Shown here: positions 15,470 through 31,888 of the stretch, piece by piece
How positions within the stretch are numbered: the stretch's first letter is position 1
Layout of the letters: every line of letters begins with the position of its first letter
NCBI GenBank assembly: GCA_020850325.1
Contig: JADZEW010000011.1
Coordinates: 1-35,000, forward strand
DNA: 35,000 nucleotides
Direction of reading: 5' to 3'
From: Methanoregulaceae archaeon
GTDB taxonomy: Bacteria > Armatimonadota > Fimbriimonadia > Fimbriimonadales > Fimbriimonadaceae
Notes under the pieces: generated by a model
Databases searched by the model: none
What the model was told of the DNA's origin: nothing
The model's input: the letters and a program-made list of their open reading frames with translations, nothing else
Program-made: the position numbers and the translations under genes

Positions 15470-17644
15470 GTGTGGGTACTTGGATTGACGGCGTGGCTCG
15501 CCCTTGGAGTTGGCGAAATGGATGAGATGGCGGGTTTGACGACGCGCTGGACGAAGGCGGCGGAGAGCGCGGCGGTTCCGTGGCCCGAGTATCCGCGCCC
15601 GCAACTGCGACGTGAAAACTGGACCAACTTAAATGGAAGCTGGGACTTCGCGATCGGCGGCACCCAGCGCCCCGAGAAGTTCGACCGCAAGATCCGCGTA
15701 CCCTATCCGGTCGAGTCCCACCTGTCAGGAGTCAACGAGATGGTGCCCGAGGGGGCGACCGTTTGGTACCGCCGAGAACTGCCTCCGACGACGGCGACGG
15801 GTCGGACCTTCCTCCGCTTTGAAGCCGTGGACTGGCACGCGAAGGTGTATCTCGATGGCCAGCTGCTGGGCGAGCACAAAGGTGGCTCGGATCCGTTCGC
15901 TTTCGATGTTACGGGTGTCGTCAGTAACGGCAAACCTCATGAACTCGTGGTCGCGGTTACCGACCCAACCGACGCGGGTCCCCAACCGCGGGGCAAGCAG
16001 GTGCGCAAGCCGGGCGGCATCTTCTACCGCCCCACGACGGGTATCTGGCAGACCGTTTGGATGGAAACCGTGCCCGAGCGGTTCGTGCACTCGCTATACA
16101 CCGAGACTAAGATGGACGGCAGGGTAACCGTTCACTTGGGAACCTCGTCTTCGGGGCCGGTGACGCTGTCCGTCTTCGATGGCGCAGAACGAGTGGCCCA
16201 GATTACGGGCGATACCGCGAAGCCGATCGAGCTTCGCGTGCCGAGTCCAAAGCTGTGGTCGCCCTCGTCGCCTTTCCGCTATCGGCTCGAAGTCACTTGT
16301 GGCAGCGACAAGGTGGAACACAAGTTCGGCATCCGGGAGTTTGGGCTCAGCAAAGAGGCGCAGCCACGCTTCACCCTGAACGGCAAGCCCATCTTCCTGT
16401 TTGGGCCGCTGGATCAAGGCTACTGGCCCGACGGACTGCTGACCCCGCCCACCGAGGCGGCGATGCGGTACGACCTGGAAGTCACCCAGCGTCTCGGCTT
16501 CAACACCGTGCGGAAGCACGTCAAGGTCGAGTCCGCGCGATGGTACGAAGCATGCGACGAGATGGGCCTCATCGTGCTTCAGGACATGCCGAGCGGCGAC
16601 CGCTCGATTGGCCCCTCCGACCCCGATCTGCAGCGCACTCCTGAGTCCGCGGCGATCTACGAGCAGGAGCTGCGGGCGATGATCGCCGGGCGGAGGATGT
16701 TCACCTCGGTCGCGATGTGGGTGGTCTTCAACGAGGGCTGGGGTCAGTTCGACACCGCCCGGATCACCGACTTGACGAAGAAGCTCGACCCCAACCGCTG
16801 GGTGAACAGCGCCAGCGGCTGGACGGATCGCGAGGTTGGCGACACGTGGGACATCCACGTGTATCCGGGACCAGCGAGTCCGAAGCCCGATCCCAAGCGA
16901 GCGCTGCTCCTGGGCGAATATGGCGGGCTTGGTCTGCGCGTCGAGGGCCATCTGTGGCAAGCCGATGGAGGCTGGGGTTATCGTTCCTATCCGTCGCGCG
17001 AAGCACTGGGTGAGGCGTTGCGGGACTCGTTCTTCGCGCTGAACATGCTCCGCGGGGATGGGCTCTCGGGGGCGATCTACACCCAGACGACCGACGTGGA
17101 AACCGAGATCAATGGTCTCCTCACCTACGACCGCGAAGTGCTGAAAGTGGACGAGAAGACTTTCCGGGGCTGGGCGGACAGCTTGCATGGCCCGATCCCC
17201 AAGGTCAGCACCCTGATCGAAACCAGCGAGCGGACGGGGCACCTGTGGCGCTACACGAAGTCCGATCCCGGCGAGGGCTGGATGGCTACCGCGTTCGATG
17301 ACTCAAAGTGGGCCGAGGGCGAGGCGGGATTTGGTTCGACCGGTACTCCCGGTGCGGTTGTCCGCACCCCGTGGACCGAAAACGGCTCGATCTGGATTCG
17401 CCGAAAGGTCGAACTTGCGGCGACCCCGCGGAGTGAACTCGCGCTCCGCATCCATCACGACGAGGACGCCGAGGTGTATCTGAACGGAGAACTGGCGGCC
17501 AAGCTCCCGGGGTGGTCCGATGGTTACAGGCTAGTTAGGATTCCGACAAAGCTCGCGAAAGGACCGCTGACGATTGCCGTGAAGTGCACGCAGACCAGCG
17601 GCGGCCAGAACATCGATGTCGGAATTGTCGAGCTTGGGCAATAG
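15470..17644 (+). CDS. Glycoside hydrolase family 2 protein (beta-galactosidase/glucuronidase-like)
   Basis: A 724-residue enzyme, probably exported (short N-terminal signal MWVLGLTAWLALGVG), that should cleave beta-linked sugars from oligosaccharides. GH2 domains run in order: a sugar-binding jelly roll (about 40-200, with ENWTNLNGSWDFAIGG and GIFYRPTTGIWQTVWME), an Ig-like domain (about 205-290), and the TIM barrel (about 295-580). The barrel holds the acid/base in VVFNEGWGQF (Glu422) and the nucleophile in LLGEYGG (Glu483). After about residue 590 a second jelly-roll-like domain follows (GHLWRYTKSDPGEGW, EVYLNGELAAKLPGW). The GTG start fits the signal peptide and the -10 box. Specificity cannot be fixed by eye. 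It suits polysaccharide use together with the sugar importers downstream. Confidence 0.9.
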   Translation: MWVLGLTAWLALGVGEMDEMAGLTTRWTKAAESAAVPWPEYPRPQLRRENWTNLNGSWDFAIGGTQRPEKFDRKIRVPYPVESHLSGVNEMVPEGATVWYRRELPPTTATGRTFLRFEAVDWHAKVYLDGQLLGEHKGGSDPFAFDVTGVVSNGKPHELVVAVTDPTDAGPQPRGKQVRKPGGIFYRPTTGIWQTVWMETVPERFVHSLYTETKMDGRVTVHLGTSSSGPVTLSVFDGAERVAQITGDTAKPIELRVPSPKLWSPSSPFRYRLEVTCGSDKVEHKFGIREFGLSKEAQPRFTLNGKPIFLFGPLDQGYWPDGLLTPPTEAAMRYDLEVTQRLGFNTVRKHVKVESARWYEACDEMGLIVLQDMPSGDRSIGPSDPDLQRTPESAAIYEQELRAMIAGRRMFTSVAMWVVFNEGWGQFDTARITDLTKKLDPNRWVNSASGWTDREVGDTWDIHVYPGPASPKPDPKRALLLGEYGGLGLRVEGHLWQADGGWGYRSYPSREALGEALRDSFFALNMLRGDGLSGAIYTQTTDVETEINGLLTYDREVLKVDEKTFRGWADSLHGPIPKVSTLIETSERTGHLWRYTKSDPGEGWMATAFDDSKWAEGEAGFGSTGTPGAVVRTPWTENGSIWIRRKVELAATPRSELALRIHHDEDAEVYLNGELAAKLPGWSDGYRLVRIPTKLAKGPLTIAVKCTQTSGGQNIDVGIVELGQ

Positions 17645-18016: not shown

Positions 18017-18319
18017 GTGGCGGTTTGCGACGAGATCATGGAGATCGGTGGGGCAGACGGGGCGGCCTACTTGGAATCGCGTCGCGATGCCTTGGCGATT
18101 GAACGTTTACTTGAGATTGTTGGAGAGGCGTTTGTGAGATTGCGGGACTCTGACGATCTGGTGTTCTCTAGAATCACCGACGGCCCCGCGATCATTGCCA
18201 TGCGTAACGTTATTGCCCATGGCTATGATGTGGTGGATCCACGCCGCGTTGTCCAAGTCATCGCTGACCGGGTGCCGCAACTTCGAGCCGAGATCGGCCA
18301 ACTAGAACTTGGCAGCTAG
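18017..18319 (+). CDS. hepT: HepT-like toxin (DUF86 family), 5' end out of frame
   Basis: The open frame from GTG 18017 gives 100 residues covering most of a HepT/HEPN toxin. The RNase motif R-x4-H-x-Y is intact (MRNVIAHGYD: Arg63, His68, Tyr70), with the tyrosine being the expected AMP target of MntA. ALAIERLLEIVGEAFVRL is the usual helix before it. The true start is probably ATG 17982, since GTG 18017 lacks a ribosome-binding site and drops about a dozen residues of the first helix; rejoined, the protein would be 112 aa, the family length. It is unclear whether a functional toxin is made. Its TAG shares CTAG with the stop of the opposing M56 gene. Confidence 0.75.
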   Translation: MAVCDEIMEIGGADGAAYLESRRDALAIERLLEIVGEAFVRLRDSDDLVFSRITDGPAIIAMRNVIAHGYDVVDPRRVVQVIADRVPQLRAEIGQLELGS

Positions 18320-19965
18320 TCACCCTTAGGTGCCGAAGATCCCATCGGCGGCACTGGCGGATAGAAAGCTGCCGCCTTCTCGACCGCCTTCATGGCCTCC
18401 TCCATTGCTCGCTTGGACTTCTCCGTCATCTTCTTTGCGTCGGCGTCGGAGTAGACCCAGGTCATCTCTTTGCGAAGCTGCTCCATATGCTTCTTGAACT
18501 CCTCGCGCTCGGAAACCGACGCCCAGGTAGCGATTTTCTCCAGATGAGCTGCTGGCAGTTGCTTGAGTTCTTTCAAGTCCTTCACGTCGGCCAGTTCGGC
18601 AAAGCTGTAGGCGAAGGTCTCGGTGCGGACCCTCGTCTTCGGCGCAGAGGGCGCGATCGCGTTATCATCGATCTCAACAAAGACGACTCGTGCCTCTCGA
18701 TCCTTCGATCGAGGCGCCAGTGCTACGGTGTCTTCCACCGTCACCCGGATCGTGGCCTCATGGGAGCGCAAGTCGGTGACGGGAGCCGAAGGTTCCACGG
18801 CCTCGGCGGGCTCCGGCAGACTCGGCCTCGGCTTGGCCTGCTTTAAAACCACCACCTTCTTGGCCTCCCACTTGGGGGCCACGGCAGTCTTGGCGGGCTT
18901 GATCGTCGGGAGCGGGTCCAGGCCCGCATCCGTGGTCACGACGATATCCTCAAGTTCGAGAGGGACGTCTTCGGCGGGCATGTTGAAGACGATCGGCGTC
19001 GGCTTACCCTTCACCACGAGAACATCCGCTTGAGGCAGCTGCGGGCGAAGGCCGCCCACGGCGACGACCGCGCCCATAGCGGCGGCCATCATGCCCAGCG
19101 CACCAATGGGCGTGAATCCTGCTCGACGGCTTTCGAGGGCGCTGGAAACGCGCCGACTGAGCTGACCTTCGCGCATGAGCGCCGTGCCGGCGATCGGCGT
19201 CCGCCCGTGGCTCTTCGTGCGCGCGATTTCGACCAGCGCGGCGGCATAGTCGGTGGCCTCGAGACCGGCGGCGATCACTCGCTCGTCGGCGGCAAGTTCA
19301 GCTTCGTCCTTTATCGCATGCGCCAACCACCACACCAGCGGGTGGCACCAAAGCAGCGCTCGAACTGACGTCGCCAGCCACTGCCAACCGCAATCGAAGC
19401 GGCGGATGTGGGCGGCCTCATGCATCAGCGCGGCTTCGCGGTGGGCTTCGGGCCAGGTATCAAAGTCGCTCGGAACAACGACGCACGCCCGGCGAATGCC
19501 AAAGGTCATCGGTGAGCCGATCGGGGCCATCCGGAAGTCAACGGGACGGGACACATCGAGCTTGGCCAGCGCCTGATAGAGCTCGTCCGTGAGGTCGTCA
19601 CCCGCTTGCCGTGCGCGCGACCACAGGCGCATGAGCGCAACGCCCCCCATGGTCATCCGGAGGGCGAGCAAGGCCGCGACTGCGGCCCACACCCAGCTCC
19701 AGTTCGCGGCGGGTGCCGCCGCCACAACCGGGGCACCTTCGGCGGCCATCATCATGATCGGTGCTGGCTTTTCAGCCCAGGGAATGTCGAAACGAAACTC
19801 GGGTCCGGCCCAAATCCACACCGGGAGGGCGAGCAAGCAGAGGACCGCGGTTCGCAACCAAGCCGAGCGCATCTGCGCGGACTGCGGCTTCAATACCCAC
19901 CAGCCCATAAGGGCGACGCCGAGCAAGAGGGTGGCACGAATGCCGAGATCGAACAACTCGTTCAT
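18316..19965 (-). CDS. M56 family membrane metallopeptidase (BlaR1/MecR1-like, no penicillin-sensor domain)
   Basis: A 549-residue inner-membrane zinc protease. Membrane helices lie at about 5-25, 35-53 and 88-112, with a fourth at about 285-305. The cytoplasmic catalytic site is HEAAH (His182-Glu183, His186), with the further ligand in KDEAELAADERV (about 221-223). In BlaR1/MecR1 such domains cut the BlaI/MecI repressor after signal binding. Here no beta-lactam-binding domain follows. Instead there is a 240-residue charged tail (about 310-549) rich in Lys, Glu and Pro. The gene overlaps the stop of the BlaI-like gene by 4 bp (ATGA), so the pair is one unit. The signal sensed is unknown. Confidence 0.87.
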   Translation of the reverse strand: MNELFDLGIRATLLLGVALMGWWVLKPQSAQMRSAWLRTAVLCLLALPVWIWAGPEFRFDIPWAEKPAPIMMMAAEGAPVVAAAPAANWSWVWAAVAALLALRMTMGGVALMRLWSRARQAGDDLTDELYQALAKLDVSRPVDFRMAPIGSPMTFGIRRACVVVPSDFDTWPEAHREAALMHEAAHIRRFDCGWQWLATSVRALLWCHPLVWWLAHAIKDEAELAADERVIAAGLEATDYAAALVEIARTKSHGRTPIAGTALMREGQLSRRVSSALESRRAGFTPIGALGMMAAAMGAVVAVGGLRPQLPQADVLVVKGKPTPIVFNMPAEDVPLELEDIVVTTDAGLDPLPTIKPAKTAVAPKWEAKKVVVLKQAKPRPSLPEPAEAVEPSAPVTDLRSHEATIRVTVEDTVALAPRSKDREARVVFVEIDDNAIAPSAPKTRVRTETFAYSFAELADVKDLKELKQLPAAHLEKIATWASVSEREEFKKHMEQLRKEMTWVYSDADAKKMTEKSKRAMEEAMKAVEKAAAFYPPVPPMGSSAPKGD

Positions 19966-21798: not shown

Positions 21799-24129
21799 CT
21801 ACTTCTGCCAGAGCGGAGCTTCGCCCCAGAATCCTGCGCCGACCACGCCGCCGGTCCCTTCAGACCAAACGCTCGGGCTGAACACCGTCCAGTCGGGATA
21901 AGCGACTCCGGCGGCAAACAGAGGGAGTCTATCCGTGGAGCGCATCCCCTTCAGGGTGGTGCCGCCGATCACCGCGACCATCCCGCCGCCGACTTCCGTG
22001 GCGAACAGGCAGCCGTAGTCTCCCTCGAGATTGCGATCGTCGATCTTGACCGCTCCGCGCCGAAGCGTGAGCGGCGCGGCGAGCTTAGCGGTCGCAAAAG
22101 CGGCATTGGTGTCGGCGTTACCGTAGAGCACCAGATTCCGGTTGCGCAGAGTATCTGCCCGGACGGCGGCATCAGGGATCACGTCCACCGCGCCGTTCCC
22201 GCGGTACCACCACTGCTCGGCGTCGTAGCGCGCCTTATTGAACGACCAGGCGTTCTCCTCACGGGAGCCCTTGGTGCTGTAAACGAAGGCCATCTTGCGC
22301 TGCATCGCCTCCTTGAAGGGGCCAGCCTGCATCGGATTCGCGGTGACCGTCTTCCAGGTGCCGTTGACCTTTTGCAGATCGATGAAGGCAGCTCGGGTGA
22401 TCGGCGGTGGCACGGTTTGGCCGTCGATTTCACGTAGACCGGCAAAGACCCTCACGGCGGCCACGTTCTCGGTCGTCATCTTCATGGTGCTGCCGTTGTC
22501 GATCACGTGGATGCGGCTGGGTTCAAGTTTCTTCTCTTGGCGCCGAATCTCGACCATGTCCATCCGGCCGCTGATCGCGGGGTTCAGCGTCATGAACCGA
22601 AGTTCCCGCCCCTCGTTGGTCTTGACAAATCGGGTGAGCTCGGTCTTTTGGAACATCTCGAACATGGGTGGCCAATCGACGCAGTCCGCCCCTGCCGAGC
22701 GATCTCCGTCCCACCAGTGGCCAGCACCCTTCTCTTCGTAGTAGCCAATCTCCTTGCCGACCTTGGCAAAGGCGTCGCGCATGGCTCGCGCCTCTCGCAC
22801 CGGCACATTGTCGTCGGCGTCACCATGCAGGATGTACACCTGCTGCGTGGCGTGGTTCTCAAAGAGCCGCTCGGTGTCGGTCGGGGAGACAGCACGCTCG
22901 AAGAACGCCTCCATCGGCGTGGGATTCTGCGGACGCGGCTTGCCGACGTAGGTGTAGAAGCTGCGCCAGCCCGCGCTTGGGGCAATGGCGGCGAAGCGGT
23001 CGGGGAAGTGCGCGCCGAGCTGCCATGTGCCGTGGCCGCCCATCGAGTGGCCGGTCAAGTAGGTTCGACGGCGATCGGTGCCGTACTTAGCCTGTACATG
23101 GTCCAGCACCTCCATGGCGTCCATCCGGCCCCAGTCTTCCCAGTCGAAGCCATACGGACGACGGTTGGTTGCCGCGACGACCCAGCACCAGTCCTTCGCG
23201 CTGTAGGCCTCGGCCTGACCCTGGGCTTCGACGGACGCGCCATGGACCGTCAGGACCAGCGCCAATCCCTTCTCAGGTTTGGTCGGCGGTACGACCGCGT
23301 AGTATTGGACCGAGCCATCGATCGCGCTGACGAACGTCTCGCGGCGACTCTGATCAGGCTTGCGAATACGGATGGTCGGAGTGATGGTGTCGGTCTGCCC
23401 TCTGGCGGTCAGTTGGAGACTCAGAGCCGCCGATGCCCCGGTCAGATCCGTTCCCGGGGGGATCCGAAAGCCGACCTTTCGGATGGATAGCGGAGGAATC
23501 GAGGGGAGTGCCGTGGATTCGGTGCGGCGGTTCGGCAGCGTTGCTTTTAGCGTGCCGCCACTGAGAGGTGCATCGGAGCCGTTGACGACGATGACCGCGC
23601 CCCACTGGGTCTCGGGCTTGCCGTCGATCAGGTCGGGCAAGGTTAGGTCGTCCCTGTTGAAGACCACCGGCTTGGGCATCGGATCGAGGCTGACCTTGAG
23701 TCGTCCGCGTCCGGTGGCGAACAGCAGGTTGTTTGTGCCTTGCTGCAGCTTGACCGGCACCCGGTTGTAGCCGTAGCCGTAGACATCGCCGCCGCGCAGC
23801 TCCCCGTTGACATACGCGAGGTTGTGGCCGACCGCGTTCATCAGCACCACCTCGGTGCGGGGGTGATTGAGTTTGAAGGCCGCATAGCCGCCCTGGAAGG
23901 GACGGCCTTCGAACCAGCCGTCCTTGTTCGCCTTGTGCTCAGCCCAGGTTCGGTTGGCAACCGTCTCACCCGCCGACGGAGCCCGCCAGGTTCCATTCAC
24001 GATTTGAAGCGCGACGGCGTCGGTAGGGAAGGGAATCCGCCCGCCTCGTCCGACGGATTCGATGGCGAGGCAACTGTCAAGCGTCGTCGGCATCGCGACG
24101 ACCGTAAGAACCAACGGAATCCACGGCAT
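21799..24129 (-). CDS. Secreted alpha/beta hydrolase (prolyl oligopeptidase/esterase-like), multidomain
   Basis: A 776-residue protein with an N-terminal signal (MPWIPLVLTVVAMP). The front (about 25-265) is beta-rich with GGYAAFKLNHPR and NLAYVNGELRGGDVYGYGY, resembling a carbohydrate-binding or jelly-roll-like module. The alpha/beta hydrolase domain spans about 270-510: oxyanion region LVLTVHGAS, nucleophile elbow TGHSMGGHGTW (Ser362), acid in ILHGDADDNVP (Asp437 or nearby) and His471 in GAGHWWDGD. The order and spacing match S9-type or acyl-esterase folds. A 260-residue beta-rich C-terminal region is unassigned. It likely removes ester groups or cleaves peptides outside the cell. It lies 13 bp after the PEP-CTERM gene, probably in the same unit. 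Confidence 0.8.
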   Translation of the reverse strand: MPWIPLVLTVVAMPTTLDSCLAIESVGRGGRIPFPTDAVALQIVNGTWRAPSAGETVANRTWAEHKANKDGWFEGRPFQGGYAAFKLNHPRTEVVLMNAVGHNLAYVNGELRGGDVYGYGYNRVPVKLQQGTNNLLFATGRGRLKVSLDPMPKPVVFNRDDLTLPDLIDGKPETQWGAVIVVNGSDAPLSGGTLKATLPNRRTESTALPSIPPLSIRKVGFRIPPGTDLTGASAALSLQLTARGQTDTITPTIRIRKPDQSRRETFVSAIDGSVQYYAVVPPTKPEKGLALVLTVHGASVEAQGQAEAYSAKDWCWVVAATNRRPYGFDWEDWGRMDAMEVLDHVQAKYGTDRRRTYLTGHSMGGHGTWQLGAHFPDRFAAIAPSAGWRSFYTYVGKPRPQNPTPMEAFFERAVSPTDTERLFENHATQQVYILHGDADDNVPVREARAMRDAFAKVGKEIGYYEEKGAGHWWDGDRSAGADCVDWPPMFEMFQKTELTRFVKTNEGRELRFMTLNPAISGRMDMVEIRRQEKKLEPSRIHVIDNGSTMKMTTENVAAVRVFAGLREIDGQTVPPPITRAAFIDLQKVNGTWKTVTANPMQAGPFKEAMQRKMAFVYSTKGSREENAWSFNKARYDAEQWWYRGNGAVDVIPDAAVRADTLRNRNLVLYGNADTNAAFATAKLAAPLTLRRGAVKIDDRNLEGDYGCLFATEVGGGMVAVIGGTTLKGMRSTDRLPLFAAGVAYPDWTVFSPSVWSEGTGGVVGAGFWGEAPLWQK

Positions 24130-24142
24130 ACGCCGGTTTTAC

Positions 24143-24886
24143 CTAGCGGTCGGTTCGTCGGGTTCGACGTCGAAGCACGTATCCGGTAGCCAGGGCCACC
24201 GCACCGAGCGTTGCCGGTTCCGGCACCACGGTGTCACCGCCGCCATCGATCGTGCCGATGATCAACCCGCCGCCAAGAAGGCCCAGGAGCCACGGACCGA
24301 TGCCGAGGGGCGTGCCGATAATCGGGATCGGGCTCTCGTTGGTGGTGATGATCTCCTCGGGTAGATCGCTGAGCCCCGGCACTTCGGGGGTCATGGCGAT
24401 CAAATCTTCAAACTCAGAGAGTTCGTCCGGTTGTGCTTCAAGTTCGCGAAGATCTTCGGTCACCCGGGCGGACAGCTTGGGCTCAGGATTCTTGGCCGAC
24501 TCGGGCACCTTCGGCCCTCGGGTCAACGGGTTGCCACACTTGGCGATCAGTACGGGGCTGCCGAACATGTCCGCAAAGACGGGCGTTCCGAGTTTCAGCT
24601 TTTGGACATGCATCTTTACGAAGCCTCCCGGAGGGATGCTGTAGACCTGATAGGTTCCTGGAGTCGTCAGCCGGGCCAACTTTAGGCTCGAAAGATAGGC
24701 GAGCACTTCACGGTGATTCATCGCGAAATGTCGCTGAAAACGGTCGCTGACCTCGGCATCAGTACGAACTTGTTCCACCAACTGAGCAACTGACCCCGCA
24801 TGACGATTCAAGAAAGCGTTTCGATCAGGTCTTGCGACCGAAAGGGAGACCAGTAACAACCCAACAACAATCCAGAACGTTCTCAT
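24143..24886 (-). CDS. PEP-CTERM sorting domain protein
   Basis: A 247-residue exported protein. The start at 24886 gives a proper signal peptide (MRTFWIVVGLLLVSLSVA); a longer frame reaching 25159 has no support and would overlap the importer gene. The mature part is unassigned and rich in charged residues. A low-complexity stretch near 185-215 (ITTNESPIPIIGTPLGIGPW, then LLGLLGGG) precedes the C-terminal sorting tail: VPEPATLG, a hydrophobic helix and RRRTRR. Exosortase would process it. The hydrolase gene follows within 13 bp, so both products may act at the cell surface. The 134-bp gap upstream (24887-25020) shows no gene. Confidence 0.85.
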   Translation of the reverse strand: MRTFWIVVGLLLVSLSVARPDRNAFLNRHAGSVAQLVEQVRTDAEVSDRFQRHFAMNHREVLAYLSSLKLARLTTPGTYQVYSIPPGGFVKMHVQKLKLGTPVFADMFGSPVLIAKCGNPLTRGPKVPESAKNPEPKLSARVTEDLRELEAQPDELSEFEDLIAMTPEVPGLSDLPEEIITTNESPIPIIGTPLGIGPWLLGLLGGGLIIGTIDGGGDTVVPEPATLGAVALATGYVLRRRTRRTDR

Positions 24887-25020
24887 AATGCAACCCAGAA
24901 ACTCCCACATATTCGGACTCCCGGAGGCTCTAGGCTGTTCCGCGCAAGAAGCGCGCCATAGGTTCAAAGTACACGATACGTCCATCAAAGAAACGACACA
25001 AACGATGGCGTTCTGCGGGG

Positions 25021-27450
25021 CTAGACTCGCGCGGTGGTGAACTTCACATTCAGGAGGCTTCTGATCTGGAGGAGGGTGAAGCCGATGAGGATCGTGCCCA
25101 TCATCCAGGCTGCGGCGGTGGCGTAGCCGAACTTCAAGAACATGAACGCGTTCTCCCAAATCTCAAGCCCGACCGTGCGCGTGGCATTGAGTGGGCCGCC
25201 GCCGGTGAGAACGAAGATGTTCTCCATCGCCTTGAACCCCGCGATGAAGACGCCCAGCAGGTTGATCATGATCAGCGTCCGCAACCCGGGCAGGGTGATG
25301 AATCGAATCTTCGCAAGCCAACTGGCACCATCGAGATCGGCGGCCTCATAGCGCTCCTCGGGGATGTTCTTCATGGCGGCAAGATAGAGGATCGACCCCG
25401 GCCCCGCACCGGCCCAAATGCCCGGGAGAACCACTGCGAACAATGCCAGGGAGGGATTGCCGAGCCAATCAACCGCCTTGGGCGCGACGTTCATGCCGAT
25501 GGTTGGAGCCACTAAGTTGTACAAATCGATGAAGGGGGACAAGAGCGTGTTCAGGATGCCCTGCTCGGTCTTGTCGTAGAACTGCCGCCAGAGGAACGCG
25601 ACGACGATCGCGCTGGTCATCGCCGGCAGATAGAACACCGTGCGGAAGAACACCTTCGCCCGCGGAATCTCGTTGAGGGCGATCGCGAGAAACACCGGGA
25701 TGAAGAACCCGATGAGCAGACTCAGCCCAACATACAGGAACGAGTTGAGCAGCGAGCGCCAGAACACCGGCTGAGAAAACACCGCGATGAAGTTGTCGAG
25801 CCCAACGTACGTCGGCGCCTGCCCGATGCGGTAGTCCTGGAAGGCGATGACGAGGCCGCGAGCGAGCGGGTAGTACGCCCAGAGCACGATGCTCGCCACC
25901 GCAGGCGCCAGGCAAGCCGCCATGAACCGGAGCATGCGCGGGCGACTCTGACCGACCGGGCCACCCACCGAAACGAACGCGCCCCGTCGACGGCTCGCCC
26001 GGATTCCCAGTCCTAGCCCGACAATGGTGAGCACTCCCAAGCCGCCCACGAAGCCCGCGGCCCACGCGCGCGTCCTCGCCATCTCTTCCGGTGGCACATA
26101 GCCAAGCATCTTCTGGTCCATCTCGCGAGCCACCCCGCTGAGGATCTCCATCGCGGGCGTCTCCGGCTCAAGCTTTGCTCGGTCGAGCGCCTGGTCGAGT
26201 ACCGCATAAACCTGCTGCATGTTCCGGCCGTAGGGTTCGGGGTGGCCGGTCTCGAATACGGATCTGCTCGCTTTGACGTATAGCGGATCGACCTGCGCGG
26301 CGAGATCGGGATAGCCAAACTTCTCGAGCCAAATCGGGTTGACGAGCCGTCCCATGCCGAGTTCGACGAACCGCTCGGTGTTGATTTGCGCGGCGCGCTC
26401 GCCAGCGAAGAATGCGATGAACTTCCAGCACGCTTCGAGCCTCTTAGGGTCTTTGACGTTGGCGTTGATCGCCCACATGCCCGCGTTGATCTCATTCGCC
26501 GGACCGGCGGGGCCAGCAGGCAGCGCGGCGACGCCGAGCACGCTGGGGTCGAGGTCGGACATGTTCAGGAGGACATCGTTGGTGTAGTCGAACCACATCG
26601 ACGCCTTGCCCTCTCGAATGGCGGAAAGCCGGTCGGAGGTGAGCAAAGCGATCGGTCCTGCGTCCTTGCCGCTCTTGCCTGGCCAGGTCTCGACGGTCAA
26701 TCGTCGGTACATGTCGAGCGCCTTCACGCCCGCTTCGGTCGCGATGCCTGCCTTCCAGATGCCCGACTCGGTGGGATAGGCGACCTCGCCCCCCGCCTGG
26801 TACACGAAGTTGCTCCAGTGGTAGCCGCGGCCGCCGATGCCGGTCGAGAACAAGAACCCATTGCGGCCGGGGCGCGCCTCGGTCAATCGGCGCCCGTACT
26901 CGATGAACTCATCCCACGTCCGAGGCGGGCGGTTCGGGTCAAGTCCGGCCTCCAAGAAGTGGTCTTTCCGATAGTACAGCGCCATCGCCACCTGAAAGAA
27001 CGGCACCGCGTACAGATGCTTGTCGTAGCTGCGCAGGACCTTCTCGATGAAGGGGTGGATGCGCTCCTTCGCGGCGGGGTCGCGCTCGATCAGATCGTCC
27101 AGAGGGCGGCAAAACCCCTGATCGATGTAGTTGAAATACTGCCGGAAGTTGACGTAGAACACGTCCGGCGCGGTGTCTCCCGCCATCGACATGAGGAAGC
27201 CGCTTTCCGCGCGCTCGCCGGTGAGTTCCAGGCCCCCGGCGTTCACGACGCGGATGCCCGGATGCTCGCGGTGGAACGTGTCGAAGACGGCGCGGCGGGC
27301 GAGCGAGCGAGGGTCAGTCGCTTCCTTCGCGGGGATGCCTTGGGCCGGGCCGGCCATCATGCGAATGGTCACGGGCTCTTGGCTCGCGGCGACCGCGACC
27401 AAGCCCCATACCAGTCCCGCGGCGATCCAGCTCCGCATACGCTCCATCAT
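25021..27450 (-). CDS. Substrate-binding protein fused to MalF-type permease (carbohydrate ABC importer), second fusion
   Basis: An 809-residue fusion. An N-terminal signal or anchor (about 1-22) leads to an extracytoplasmic family-1-type solute-binding domain (about 25-450), with the marks APDVFYVNFRQYFNYIDQG, HLYAVPFFQVAMALYYRKD and RPPRTWDEFIEYGRRL. A membrane helix (463-483) and a basic loop (RASRRRG) connect to a complete MalF-like permease (about 505-805), whose EAA loop YEAADLDGASWLAKIRFITLP is at 701-721 and docks the ATPase. Normally the binding protein and permease are separate chains. There is no MalG partner downstream; the one at 27696-29438 lies upstream. Several ATG codons (27450, 27447, 27438) could serve as start. 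Sugar type unknown. Confidence 0.88.
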   Translation of the reverse strand: MMERMRSWIAAGLVWGLVAVAASQEPVTIRMMAGPAQGIPAKEATDPRSLARRAVFDTFHREHPGIRVVNAGGLELTGERAESGFLMSMAGDTAPDVFYVNFRQYFNYIDQGFCRPLDDLIERDPAAKERIHPFIEKVLRSYDKHLYAVPFFQVAMALYYRKDHFLEAGLDPNRPPRTWDEFIEYGRRLTEARPGRNGFLFSTGIGGRGYHWSNFVYQAGGEVAYPTESGIWKAGIATEAGVKALDMYRRLTVETWPGKSGKDAGPIALLTSDRLSAIREGKASMWFDYTNDVLLNMSDLDPSVLGVAALPAGPAGPANEINAGMWAINANVKDPKRLEACWKFIAFFAGERAAQINTERFVELGMGRLVNPIWLEKFGYPDLAAQVDPLYVKASRSVFETGHPEPYGRNMQQVYAVLDQALDRAKLEPETPAMEILSGVAREMDQKMLGYVPPEEMARTRAWAAGFVGGLGVLTIVGLGLGIRASRRRGAFVSVGGPVGQSRPRMLRFMAACLAPAVASIVLWAYYPLARGLVIAFQDYRIGQAPTYVGLDNFIAVFSQPVFWRSLLNSFLYVGLSLLIGFFIPVFLAIALNEIPRAKVFFRTVFYLPAMTSAIVVAFLWRQFYDKTEQGILNTLLSPFIDLYNLVAPTIGMNVAPKAVDWLGNPSLALFAVVLPGIWAGAGPGSILYLAAMKNIPEERYEAADLDGASWLAKIRFITLPGLRTLIMINLLGVFIAGFKAMENIFVLTGGGPLNATRTVGLEIWENAFMFLKFGYATAAAWMMGTILIGFTLLQIRSLLNVKFTTARV

Positions 27451-27541
27451 AGCGCGAATGGGCCGTTTACCGACGCCGAGGACCCTCGAAGGGTTGGGGT
27501 TAGTTCAGAGGGTGTTTCGTCGTGCCCAAACCTGAGGACTC

Positions 27542-27616
27542 ATTGTGGGAGCGGGATGTATCCGTGCCCGCTCTGAACCTGAGAGGTTCCGGCACGATGC
27601 ATCCGGAACCCACAAT
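27542..27616. repeat. Compact inverted-repeat element predicted to fold as a three-way junction
   Basis: Within the 245-bp gap between two importer genes, ATTGTGGG (27542-27549) pairs with CCCACAAT (27609-27616). These enclose two hairpins: GAGCGGG...CCCGCTC (27549-27573, 11-nt loop) and GGTTCCGG...CCGGAACC (27585-27610, 10-nt loop), with one or two bases shared at the junction. An alternative hairpin, GAACCT-GAG-AGGTTC (27575-27589), competes with the second. There is no T-run, so a simple terminator is unlikely. The flanks (27451-27541, 27617-27695) show no gene. It could be a REP-like unit or a 5' leader structure. Confidence 0.6.
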
Positions 27617-27695
27617 CAAGCACGATGCAACAACCTCGTTCGTTCCCCCGCCGCCAGGTTGCACGCCCACCTCGTTGCCAATCAAGCGGGGTCGA

Positions 27696-29438
27696 TTACC
27701 GCCCGCCCAAGCCGCTCAACGCCACGCCCTCGATGAAATAGCGCTGGAAGAAGAAGAAGATCGCCAGCACCGGCACCATCGTCAACGTCGCAAACGCCAT
27801 GAGATAGCCCGGTTCGCCACCACGGTCGCTCGCAAAGAGCTGTAGCGCGTACGAGAGTGGCATGTTCTCGGGCGAGTTGATGTAGATCAGCGGCCCCATG
27901 AAGTTGTTCCAGGCACCCATGAAGGTCCAGATGAAGATCACCGCGAGCGCGGGCTTGATCTGCGGCAGCATGATGCTCCAGAACGTGCGCAAGTAGCTGC
28001 AGCCGTCGATCTTCGCCGCGTCCTCGAGCTCCATCGGGATGTTCATGAAGAACTGGCGCAGCAAGAAAATGTTAAACGCCGAGCCGAAGAAAGCGGGCAC
28101 CCACAACGGATAGAGCGTGTCGATCCACCCCAGCGACCGGAAGATCAAGAACTGGGGCAGCAGCGTTACCGCGCCGGGCAGCATCATCGTGGCGAGCATC
28201 AGGCTAAAGAGCGGTCCTCTCCCCGGGAAGCGCATTCGGCTGAACGCGTAGCTCACGATGCTTGAGCTGAAGAGCGTGCCGATGATGCTCAAGACGACGA
28301 GGAGCAGTGTGTTCTTTAAGTACACGAGGCCGAACTGGGTCTCCGGGGGTAAGTAGCTGAGGGACTCAGGGTAGTTTCGGACATTCAGCCCAATATGGCG
28401 GACCGGCTCGGTTTCACCTGCCGGGATGATGCGCTCTTGGTCCTTCAGTTCTGCTGGCTGCTGAATCTTGACTTTCTTGCGCCCATCCTCGAAGTCCTCG
28501 ATCACGATGCCGCGGATCGAGGTGCCGTCGGCATTCGCGGTGACCACCTCGGCCTTGCGCGGGACTTCTTTGAGTTCGCTTCGCAGCGTGTCCATGGTGA
28601 CGCCACGAATCGAAAGCGGCCGGTAGATGTCGATCTTGACCCGATCCGCGTCCAGTTCCTCGATGATCACCCCCTCGACCATCTGGCCGTTCAAGCTGGC
28701 TTCGTACATCGGCTGGCGCGGGTCGAAGTAATCCACCCGCTCGGTGACGCGGGGCACCCAGATGATGCCCTCGGGGGAAGACATGTCGCGGTCTTCCTTA
28801 AAGCTCGTGATCAGCAGGTAGGCGAACGGCAGACCGAACACGAACGAACCTGCGATCAGCGCCGCCTGCACGACGATGCCTTTCGCGAAGCCTCGGGTGG
28901 CCGTCGACCGGGCCGCGAACGCCATCGCTCCGACTCCCGCCACCAGAAGCAGCAACGTCACCACGGCGGTGTTGATGCCGAAGGGAATCCCGCCCTTCAG
29001 CACCGCGATGGTGTTCGCGGGCTCGCGGAAGTACAGCACGGAGAAGCCTATCGCGACCAGCAGCCAGATGCCAGCCGCCTTATGCTTGCCCAAAGCCTCG
29101 CGACCGTTGAGTGCTTGGGCGGCTTGGACAAAGCGGACGCCCACCATGAGCAGCGCGACAACCGCGCCCCACGCGGTGAACGGCATCACGAACCAAACGA
29201 TGGGCAGACGCCAGACGCCCTCGGTTGAGGTCTCTCGCATCGGAGGAAGCAGCCATCCGAGAGCGAGGCCCAGCGCCGCGAGCGCGACTGACGTGAGCAT
29301 CGCGCGACGGTTCGCGTCCCGGGTCGTAGCGGGGCCGGTGAAGAGTTGGAAGCCAAACCAAACTCCGCGAAAGAGCATGTACCAACCCAGCCAAATCGCG
29401 AGCGTTCCGAGGGCGTACAGTAGGTTCGTGGTGATCAT
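27696..29438 (-). CDS. MalG-type carbohydrate ABC permease with extra N-terminal helices and a periplasmic insert
   Basis: A 580-residue permease, about twice the usual ~280 aa. The C-terminal part (about 370-580) is typical: NTLLLVVLSIIGTLFSSS, the EAA loop LEDAAKIDGCSYLRTFWSIMLPQ (470-492), and the end FIEGVALSGLGG. The first MalG helix lies at about 190-212 and is followed by a 150-residue extracytoplasmic insert. Within it a short motif occurs twice (VEGVIIEELDADRVKIDIYRP at 254-274 and IRGIVIEDFEDGRKKVKIQQP at 308-328). Residues 1-180 add about five membrane helices. The start at 29438 overlaps the upstream stop (ATGA), so it is coupled to the first fusion gene. An upstream in-frame extension overlaps that gene too far to be real. 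Confidence 0.87.
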   Translation of the reverse strand: MITTNLLYALGTLAIWLGWYMLFRGVWFGFQLFTGPATTRDANRRAMLTSVALAALGLALGWLLPPMRETSTEGVWRLPIVWFVMPFTAWGAVVALLMVGVRFVQAAQALNGREALGKHKAAGIWLLVAIGFSVLYFREPANTIAVLKGGIPFGINTAVVTLLLLVAGVGAMAFAARSTATRGFAKGIVVQAALIAGSFVFGLPFAYLLITSFKEDRDMSSPEGIIWVPRVTERVDYFDPRQPMYEASLNGQMVEGVIIEELDADRVKIDIYRPLSIRGVTMDTLRSELKEVPRKAEVVTANADGTSIRGIVIEDFEDGRKKVKIQQPAELKDQERIIPAGETEPVRHIGLNVRNYPESLSYLPPETQFGLVYLKNTLLLVVLSIIGTLFSSSIVSYAFSRMRFPGRGPLFSLMLATMMLPGAVTLLPQFLIFRSLGWIDTLYPLWVPAFFGSAFNIFLLRQFFMNIPMELEDAAKIDGCSYLRTFWSIMLPQIKPALAVIFIWTFMGAWNNFMGPLIYINSPENMPLSYALQLFASDRGGEPGYLMAFATLTMVPVLAIFFFFQRYFIEGVALSGLGGR

Positions 29439-31888
29439 CGGTCCGCCTCGTAGTGCACCCACTTCGGCGCGAGTTTGAACTGGATTGCCGTCAGGATGAC
29501 AATGATCGCGAAGATGATCCAGGCGATTGCCGACGCCGAGCCCATCTTGAAGAACGAAAACGCGTCTTGGAAGAGGCGGTACACCGGAGTGAGCATCGCG
29601 TCGTCGGGGCCGACCGGGCCGTCCTTCGACGGCCGCATGACGTACATGCGGTCGAACTCCTGCATTGCGCCGATGAATCCCATGACCGTGTTGAAGAACA
29701 CGATCGAACTCAGCTGCGGGAAGGTGACGCTCCAGAACTGCCGCCACGGCGTTGCGCCGTCGATGGACGAGGCCTCGTAGAGCGAGGTCGGAACTCCCTT
29801 CAGACCGGCGAGCCACAGAATCATGCCACTGCCTGCTCCCCAGACGCCCATGAGAACAAGAGCCGGCTTGGCCCAGTCCGCGCTCTGAATCCACCCAGGA
29901 GGACTCACGCCGAGCCAGGGCGATATCGTTTCCCGCCAGAAGGCATTGATGAGGCCCTTGTTGGGGTCGGGCGTCAGCACCCACGTCCACAGCACCGCGC
30001 TGGCGATTCCGGGCACGATCGCCGGCATATAAAACATCGTTCGGTAGACCCGCATCCCGCGAGCCGCCGCATTCAAAAGGAGCGCTACTAGCAGACCGGT
30101 GGCCAACCCGAGCGGCACTCCGACCCCCGCGAGATACGCCGCGTTGCCGAATGCCTTAAGCATGATCGCCCGGTCGGTCGTGGCTAGGTCCGCGTAGTTC
30201 TTCCCGCCGACCCATCGCGCCTCGTTGAGCACGTCCCACTGCGTGAAGCTGAAGAACAGGGAGGCGACCATCGGGCCGAGGGTGAACACCAGGAAGCCGA
30301 TGACCCAGGGGGCGATGAACAGATACGCCCACTTTGCCTCCGTCCGCTCAAGCCGTCCAAGTTGTTGCCGGAGGAACCACACCACCGCGGCGGCGAGGCC
30401 CAGAAGTGCCAGCAGAATGCCGATCCGCACCGGTACGCCGAGGTCGAGTTCTGGGTAACGGTCTTTCTGAAAGTAGGCATCGAGGTCGCGCTGTACAGCG
30501 GCCTGTCCGGTGGCGAGCGCCTGCTCCGGAGTCTTGTTCTTGTACAGCGCGGCCTCCATCGCCTTCACATGCTCGTTCCATAAGGTTTGAGCGACGACGG
30601 TCGGGGGCCGGCCCTTGCCGAACGTACCCATTTCGATGTGCATCCCCAGCGCGTCGGCGAACTTCTTGTCCGCGTAGTTGAAGCGCTTGAGCACCGCTTC
30701 GTTGTACTCCTCGCTTGCCGAAACCCGGGGAATGAGCGTGCGGCCCTGGCGACGATCCCACTCGCGCTGGGCATCGAAGTCGATCAGCCGCCCTTCGGTG
30801 CTGCTCATGAACTTGATGAACCGCCACGCCGCCTCAGGGTTGCGGGCTCCGCGGGGGATGGCGTACGAGAAGCCGCCAAACCAAGTCACCCACTTGTTGG
30901 GCTCGTTGGCGAAGGCCCCCCGCTGGTGGAAGCGGTCGTCGGGGACGGGAGGCGGGGATGCGCCGAGATCGATCTGCGGGCCGTAGCGGGCAAGGCCGGA
31001 TAGGATCCAATCGCCGTCGATCTTCATCGCGACCTTGCCGATGATGAACGCGTCGTTCTCGCGACCGAGGAAGCCCGATTCAAACGACTTCGCCTTGTCG
31101 TAGCCGCCGACGATTTCGTAGCCGTCGACCATGAACTGCAGCGCCTTCTGCGCCTCCGGCGAGTTCAGCGTGCAGGTGCGTCCGTCCGCCGACATAAACT
31201 CGGCGTTCATCATGAACGCGAACATGTACAGCCACGAGTTGCCGAAGTTCGGCATGAACCCGGCGCGCTTCAGAGTGCCGTCCTTGTTGAACTCGGTGAG
31301 CACTCGGCTGTAGGCGAGCAACTCGGTCCAGGTTTGCGGAGCCCGATCGGGATCGAGTCCCGCCGCTCGGAGTTCCTTCGCCTTCAGCTTGAAGATGGCG
31401 CGGTTCCAGTAGAGGACCCGGTTGTCCGCCGAGGACGGGATCGCGTACACCTTGCCGCCGTAGCTCGCCTCGATCCAGGTTGCGTCGTAATATTGGTCGG
31501 ACCGCGGGTTGAGCGGATCGTCTTGGTCGCGCTGCATCAGCTCATCCAGCGGGAGGAACGCTCCCCGGCTTGCCCAGTCGGAAACGGTAAATCGATCTTG
31601 GCTGATGACGTCTGGCGCGACGTTGCCCACGATTGAGGTCATCAGCTTTTGCGGATCCATGGCGCCCGCGCCCATCGTCAGGGTCTTGACGCGGATGTCC
31701 GGGTTGCGTCGCTCGAACTCACGCAGAGCGGCGTCGGTGCCTTTGGAGTCGGGCCCTAGGCCGATGCCCCAGACCACAAGATCCGTCCTTTCCGCCGCCG
31801 GCTGGTTCTGCCCGGCCCCTTGTGCACCCGCAAGGACGCTCAAGGCTACGGCCAAGAAACCAACGAGGACGGGACGGCATCGTCTCAT
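29435..31888 (-). CDS. Substrate-binding protein fused to MalF-type permease (carbohydrate ABC importer), first fusion
   Basis: An 817-residue fusion with the same architecture as the later gene but a divergent sequence. It has a signal or anchor (about 8-24), then a family-1-type solute-binding domain (about 33-478) with NVAPDVISQDRF, GKVYAIPSSADNRVLYWN and APQTWTELLAYSRVL. A linking helix (487-506), a basic cytoplasmic loop (RQQLGRLERTEAKW) and a MalF-like permease (about 520-805) follow, with EAA loop YEASSIDGATPWRQFWSVTFP at 704-724. It is the first gene of the importer unit and couples to the MalG-type gene by ATGA. TACAAT lies 9 nt and GGAGG 4 nt before its ATG. Substrate unknown. Confidence 0.9.
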   Translation of the reverse strand: MRRCRPVLVGFLAVALSVLAGAQGAGQNQPAAERTDLVVWGIGLGPDSKGTDAALREFERRNPDIRVKTLTMGAGAMDPQKLMTSIVGNVAPDVISQDRFTVSDWASRGAFLPLDELMQRDQDDPLNPRSDQYYDATWIEASYGGKVYAIPSSADNRVLYWNRAIFKLKAKELRAAGLDPDRAPQTWTELLAYSRVLTEFNKDGTLKRAGFMPNFGNSWLYMFAFMMNAEFMSADGRTCTLNSPEAQKALQFMVDGYEIVGGYDKAKSFESGFLGRENDAFIIGKVAMKIDGDWILSGLARYGPQIDLGASPPPVPDDRFHQRGAFANEPNKWVTWFGGFSYAIPRGARNPEAAWRFIKFMSSTEGRLIDFDAQREWDRRQGRTLIPRVSASEEYNEAVLKRFNYADKKFADALGMHIEMGTFGKGRPPTVVAQTLWNEHVKAMEAALYKNKTPEQALATGQAAVQRDLDAYFQKDRYPELDLGVPVRIGILLALLGLAAAVVWFLRQQLGRLERTEAKWAYLFIAPWVIGFLVFTLGPMVASLFFSFTQWDVLNEARWVGGKNYADLATTDRAIMLKAFGNAAYLAGVGVPLGLATGLLVALLLNAAARGMRVYRTMFYMPAIVPGIASAVLWTWVLTPDPNKGLINAFWRETISPWLGVSPPGWIQSADWAKPALVLMGVWGAGSGMILWLAGLKGVPTSLYEASSIDGATPWRQFWSVTFPQLSSIVFFNTVMGFIGAMQEFDRMYVMRPSKDGPVGPDDAMLTPVYRLFQDAFSFFKMGSASAIAWIIFAIIVILTAIQFKLAPKWVHYEADR

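Follow-up and report, generated by a model that had tools for sequence, protein, structure and literature searches.

Gene content and architecture of the B-G-A locus

The window (the whole stretch of 35,000 nucleotides analysed) could be assigned to a Fimbriimonadaceae genome of the Armatimonadota, protein B being 98% identical in a genome of the same genus; B was also present at 98% identity on a contig of the Fimbriimonadaceae MAG RX3_metabat.bin.16. Three genes are transcribed from the minus strand in the order B, G and A (Table 1). The gap of 245 bases from G to the downstream gene A contained no terminator-like or promoter-like site in a simple scan.

Table 1. Positions of the genes and predicted features (window coordinates, except for G2)
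Feature	Position	Strand	Basis or remark
B, 817-aa SBP-MalF fusion, importer 1	29435..31888	-	ORF, Pfam, AlphaFold, orthologues
SBP_bac_1 receptor domain of B	30791..31735	-	Pfam and structure/profile comparison
Linker transmembrane helix of B, residues 484-507, then basic loop	30368..30439	-	Predicted
MalF/UgpA-type permease core of B, residues 511-816	29441..30358	-	EAA loop ~29711-29779
ATGA overlap, B stop / G start	29435..29438	-	Read in sequence
G, enlarged MalG/UgpE-type permease, 580 aa, predicted partner of B	27696..29438	-	Pfam, permease models, linkage
Extension at the N terminus of G (residues 2-180), predicted to add five membrane helices	28899..29435	-	Alignment and model
Insert of G separating TM1 from TM2 (residues 229-352), predicted extracytoplasmic; all-beta, made of two similar units	28383..28754	-	Model and alignment
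A, 809-aa SBP-MalF fusion, importer 2	25021..27450	-	ORF, Pfam, orthologues
SBP_bac_1 receptor domain of A	26389..27294	-	Pfam
Linker transmembrane helix of A, residues 465-483, then basic loop	26002..26058	-	Predicted
MalF-type permease core of A, residues 501-808	25027..25950	-	EAA loop ~25282-25350
G2, MalG-type, most likely partner of A	G000:C16:182372-183913	+	Elsewhere in genome

Neither a glycosidase nor a sugar regulator was seen next to the A, B and G genes, and a conserved gene adjoining A in several relatives, considered as a possible glycosidase, was identified as PriA. Downstream of A lies a protein with a PEP-CTERM-like tail (VPEPATLGAVALATGYVLRRR) and a weak DUF6777 match below cut-off (24143-25159, minus strand), followed by a 776-aa protein with a prolyl-oligopeptidase/PHB-depolymerase-like hydrolase domain (21799-24129, minus strand). 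A BlaR1-like M56 peptidase (18316-19965, minus strand) and a glycoside hydrolase family 2 protein (15470-17644, plus strand) were also found. The latter does not adjoin B and is of possible interest given the B receptor described below, as family 2 includes beta-mannosidases.

Both fusion ORFs are open over their full length. Pfam analysis revealed SBP_bac_1 and BPD_transp_1 domains above cut-off in each: in A at residues 53-354 (E 1.7e-32) and 583-792 (29.7 bits against a cut-off of 26.4), and in B at residues 52-366 (E 8e-33) and 594-809 (47.5 bits). The permease parts matched UgpA, GlcT and MalF models and carry the EAA loops YEAADLDGA... and YEASSIDGA.... A linker helix was predicted in both proteins, and the linker segment was present in 153 of 157 collected fused proteins, in which the 22 residues after the helix average 5.5 K+R against 1.9 D+E. 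The AlphaFold model of B had a mean pLDDT of 85.6 and a pTM of 0.81. These results bear out the preliminary description, which had read each protein as a receptor, linking helix, basic cytoplasmic loop and permease with an EAA loop, joined in a fusion of the MalF/CUT1 type.

An origin of the fusions in a sequencing or assembly join could be rejected. Of 60 relatives, 33 encode an orthologue of A that is full-length and in a single frame, mostly at 56-67% identity; orthologues of B were found in about as many, and in a same-genus genome the start of A occurs on the same contig as the 98%-identical B; A and B are therefore not artefacts. Sampling of 251 genomes across the phylum gave A-type matches (E 1e-70 or better) in 117, of which 64 do not belong to the order, and homologues of B with about 50% identity occur in several families outside the order.

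The nearest solved relative of the B receptor was the mannan-oligosaccharide-binding protein CpMnBP1 (4r9f; profile E 1.4e-59), and structure comparison (VIA) with it gave Z 36.0 and rmsd 3.1 over 387 aligned residues, a result tied with others. This likeness hints at a plant-type oligosaccharide as the substrate of B; for A, nothing narrower than a sugar is proposed. PDB chain 6ffl matched the B profile at E 5e-24, which denotes SBP homology only. In one genome (G003), the sole two SBP_bac_1 matches were the two fused proteins.

MalG-type partners and the ATPase

In relatives, 25 of the 28 B loci (L044-L071) have a G-type MalG next to B, and one of the three that lack it has just 0.3 kb of flanking sequence. 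G, the linked MalG, is accordingly listed as the predicted partner of B. Its insert was all-beta in the model, with pLDDT mostly 85-90, and the two halves resembled each other with a score of 58 against 23 ± 4.5 for shuffled sequences. Among the matches listed, a Foldseek search with G returned permease chains only and none for the insert alone.

Enlargement of MalG was associated with fusion of its partner. Among MalG-type proteins in loci near B homologues, the median length of the stretch before the permease core was about 320 residues where MalF was fused and about 70 where it was unfused (Mann-Whitney p 2e-9, uncorrected for phylogeny). In alignments, much of the extra sequence falls between TM1 and TM2 and its content differs between phyla; in Fimbriimonadaceae, MalG also has an N-terminal membrane extension. 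The association suggests that the inserts may touch or dock the tethered receptor. The insert is no requirement of fusion, because the C-type fusions of this family, a third set described below, are mostly followed by an ordinary short MalG.

When no MalG gene was found near A, a homodimer of A acting without MalG was considered; it was dropped once G2 had been found by a permease search in genomes with A but without B. G2 belongs to the MalG type and has about 250 inserted residues separating TM1 from TM2; in nearly every genome of this order its gene is unlinked to that of A. Across 61 genomes, 36 had both A and G2, 23 had neither, one had A only and one had G2 only, so that 59 of 61 agree (Fisher 1.5e-14, a value that ignores phylogeny); the two discordant genomes are 73% and 68% complete. 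A and G2 were also missing together inside families f1 and f5. In genomes from outside the order, a same-strand G2-type gene was no more than 4 kb away for 55 of the 80 A copies, as counted from the coordinates of matches within set E-value limits, and just one genome with A was without G2. The sister pair in G002 is adjacent. One locus (L140:938-5996, plus strand) encodes a 1020-aa A relative with extra stretches, followed directly by a 665-aa G2 relative.

A occurs without B in G040, G044, G048, G050, G052 and G054, and B occurs without A in some other genomes. Because A and G2 are co-retained, B and G are linked, and A and B each occur alone, A would represent an importer separate from that of B. 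Two fusions in one importer was rejected as the default reading by these distribution and linkage data; A and B appear to belong to two different transporters, with unlinked G2 the most likely partner of A. The simplest reading is that an ancestral A-G2 operon came apart in this order and that A landed beside B-G in this genus.

This genome has one MalK-type ATPase with an OB domain, an unlinked copy on G000:C1. Exactly one OB_MalK protein was found in 10 of 12 genomes checked, and G175 has one despite 22 SBP_bac_1 matches; the two genomes without OB_MalK (G042 and G046) were also without A, B and G2. Judging from gene counts, one MalK-type ATPase probably serves both importers. PMC4519317 describes one ATPase of the MsmK type as common to several importers, to which the present arrangement is similar; it differs in that sharing is deduced here from the counts.

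Origins and spread of the fusions

In quick trees, from which four very-long-branch rows were left out for the clade tests, A and B each formed one clade with both the permease and the receptor domains. For the permease domain, the AU test rejected a single clade of A and B (p 5.5e-5), and one clade of all fused rows was weakly rejected (p 0.023). Of the earlier view that two independent fusions are present, the separateness of the A and B lineages thus stands, whereas independent fusion events are favoured rather than proven; an ancestral fusion may have split.

A survey across phyla, made on the best 80 of at least 580 matches from one contig scan (mostly MAGs, a sample rather than a census), recovered the architecture throughout Armatimonadota and in at least nine other named phyla. 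Among these 80 matches, single-ORF fusions were found in 14 of 15 loci of Armatimonadota, in Hydrogenedentota (5), Kiritimatiellota (4), Planctomycetota (4), Latescibacterota (3), Abditibacteriota, Poribacteria, Gemmatimonadota, Nitrospirota and Verrucomicrobiota (1 each), and in two unassigned MAGs. Within the same 80, every locus was unfused in Bacillota (19), Chloroflexota (14), FCPU426 (3), Actinomycetota (2), Deinococcota (1), Firestonebacteria (1) and two other unassigned MAGs. The ten phyla with fusions are, we assume, all diderm, yet Deinococcota, which we also take to be diderm, were unfused in the sample; a tie between fusion and diderm envelopes is suggestive only. A third set, the C-type fusions (L101-L120, L141-L170), is about 30% identical to B, was used in the survey and occurs in several copies in some genomes.

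Known systems, proposed mechanism and significance

The features of CUT1 importers could be recognised here: MalF and MalG permeases with EAA loops, an SBP_bac_1 receptor and an OB-domain MalK in the genome. A maltose/maltodextrin importer of Bdellovibrio bacteriovorus with a MalE-MalF fusion and separate MalG and MalK was reportedly described by Licht et al. in 2019, and PDB chain 6ffl, an SBP-fold chain named as a permease homologue, is presumably the MalE domain of that fusion. The preliminary description had linked receptor-permease fusions mainly to other importer classes. Since a MalE-MalF fusion has already been described for the CUT1 class, going by the citing passage in PMC7756565, the architecture has one reported precedent and is not categorically new. 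As in that system, A and B each hold one SBP domain and MalF in a single polypeptide; unlike it, the present fusions fall into two lineages that are not sisters, each with dozens of orthologues, have enlarged MalG partners and extend over many phyla, and the genes of one of the two systems are scattered.

GlnPQ and OpuA, which serve other substrate classes, likewise have receptors covalently joined to the permease. Their permeases are homodimeric and each transporter carries at least two receptor domains, whereas the data on MalG-type partners point to heterodimers for A and B, with one receptor per transporter expected. CUT1 importers typically consist of four gene products, and their receptors in Gram-negative bacteria float freely in the periplasm (PMC11212667, a review). 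MalFGK2-MalE, UgpAEBC and LpqY-SugABC share with A and B the permease folds, the EAA loops and the heterodimeric MalF/MalG types; they differ in having a free or lipid-anchored receptor and a MalG that measures about 280-300 aa and lacks any large insert. No literature on such fusions in Armatimonadota was found in a search that mostly covered journals other than subscription titles. As far as found, what is new is how widely the fusions occur, their division into two non-sister lineages, the enlargement of the MalG partners, and the A-G2 pair, which is co-retained although scattered.

From the gene and domain evidence, we consider it probable that A and B each serve as the combined receptor and MalF subunit of a separate CUT1-type sugar importer, B working with the adjoining enlarged G and A with G2, and with a common MalK most likely. 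In such importers, the exported sugar-binding domain would be held at the outer side of the membrane by the linker helix, which would cross inwards to the basic loop inside and lead on to the permease core. The receptor would deliver its ligand, presumably an oligosaccharide, in cis to its own attached permease for transport, energised in both importers by the single MalK-type ATPase. One fixed receptor per MalF-MalG pair, as proposed earlier, is to be expected because MalF occurs once per MalFGK2.

The fused receptors might instead act mainly as tethered scavengers or sensors that pass ligand to other permeases or increase sugar levels nearby, their own permease being secondary. Unfused MalF- and MalG-type permeases are indeed present in the same genome. 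This role appears improbable, as EAA loops and Pfam matches above cut-off persist in the permease cores, each fusion has a MalG of its own, either linked or co-retained, and the characterised MalE-MalF fusion is transport-competent according to the passage of PMC7756565 that cites it. Cleavage after export, which would make the receptor an ordinary free binding protein and leave the joint gene merely to set the ratio, appears very improbable in view of the near-universal retention of the linker helix and inside-positive loop.

The single-strand B-G-A order in this genus and the G-A gap, in which the scan found no terminator-like site, would also suit a G common to A and B, with two receptor specificities on one MalG, and A could also use G from its position downstream. 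This seems unlikely: G2 is kept in the A-without-B genomes G044, G048, G050 and G052, a G2-type gene rather than G adjoins A in many other families, and the relatives' loci that were checked showed no G-type gene closer than 1.5 kb to A. Pairing of B with G and of A with G2 thus remains the preferred reading. It is possible, if somewhat doubtful, that CUT1 importers combining a tethered receptor with an enlarged MalG make up a separate and widespread diderm class, in which the insert docks or clamps the attached receptor and replaces the pool of free receptor.

Such fused proteins may be given wrong names by annotation pipelines designed for separate genes, and the A-G2 case illustrates how co-retention can point out a MalG partner once an operon has broken up. 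The fusions would also give kinetic and structural studies natural systems in which receptor and transporter stand in a one-to-one ratio. Welded receptors are common in Armatimonadota and occur in several other diderm phyla; with the fused receptor so widespread, an excess of free receptor is therefore probably no general need of the CUT1 class.
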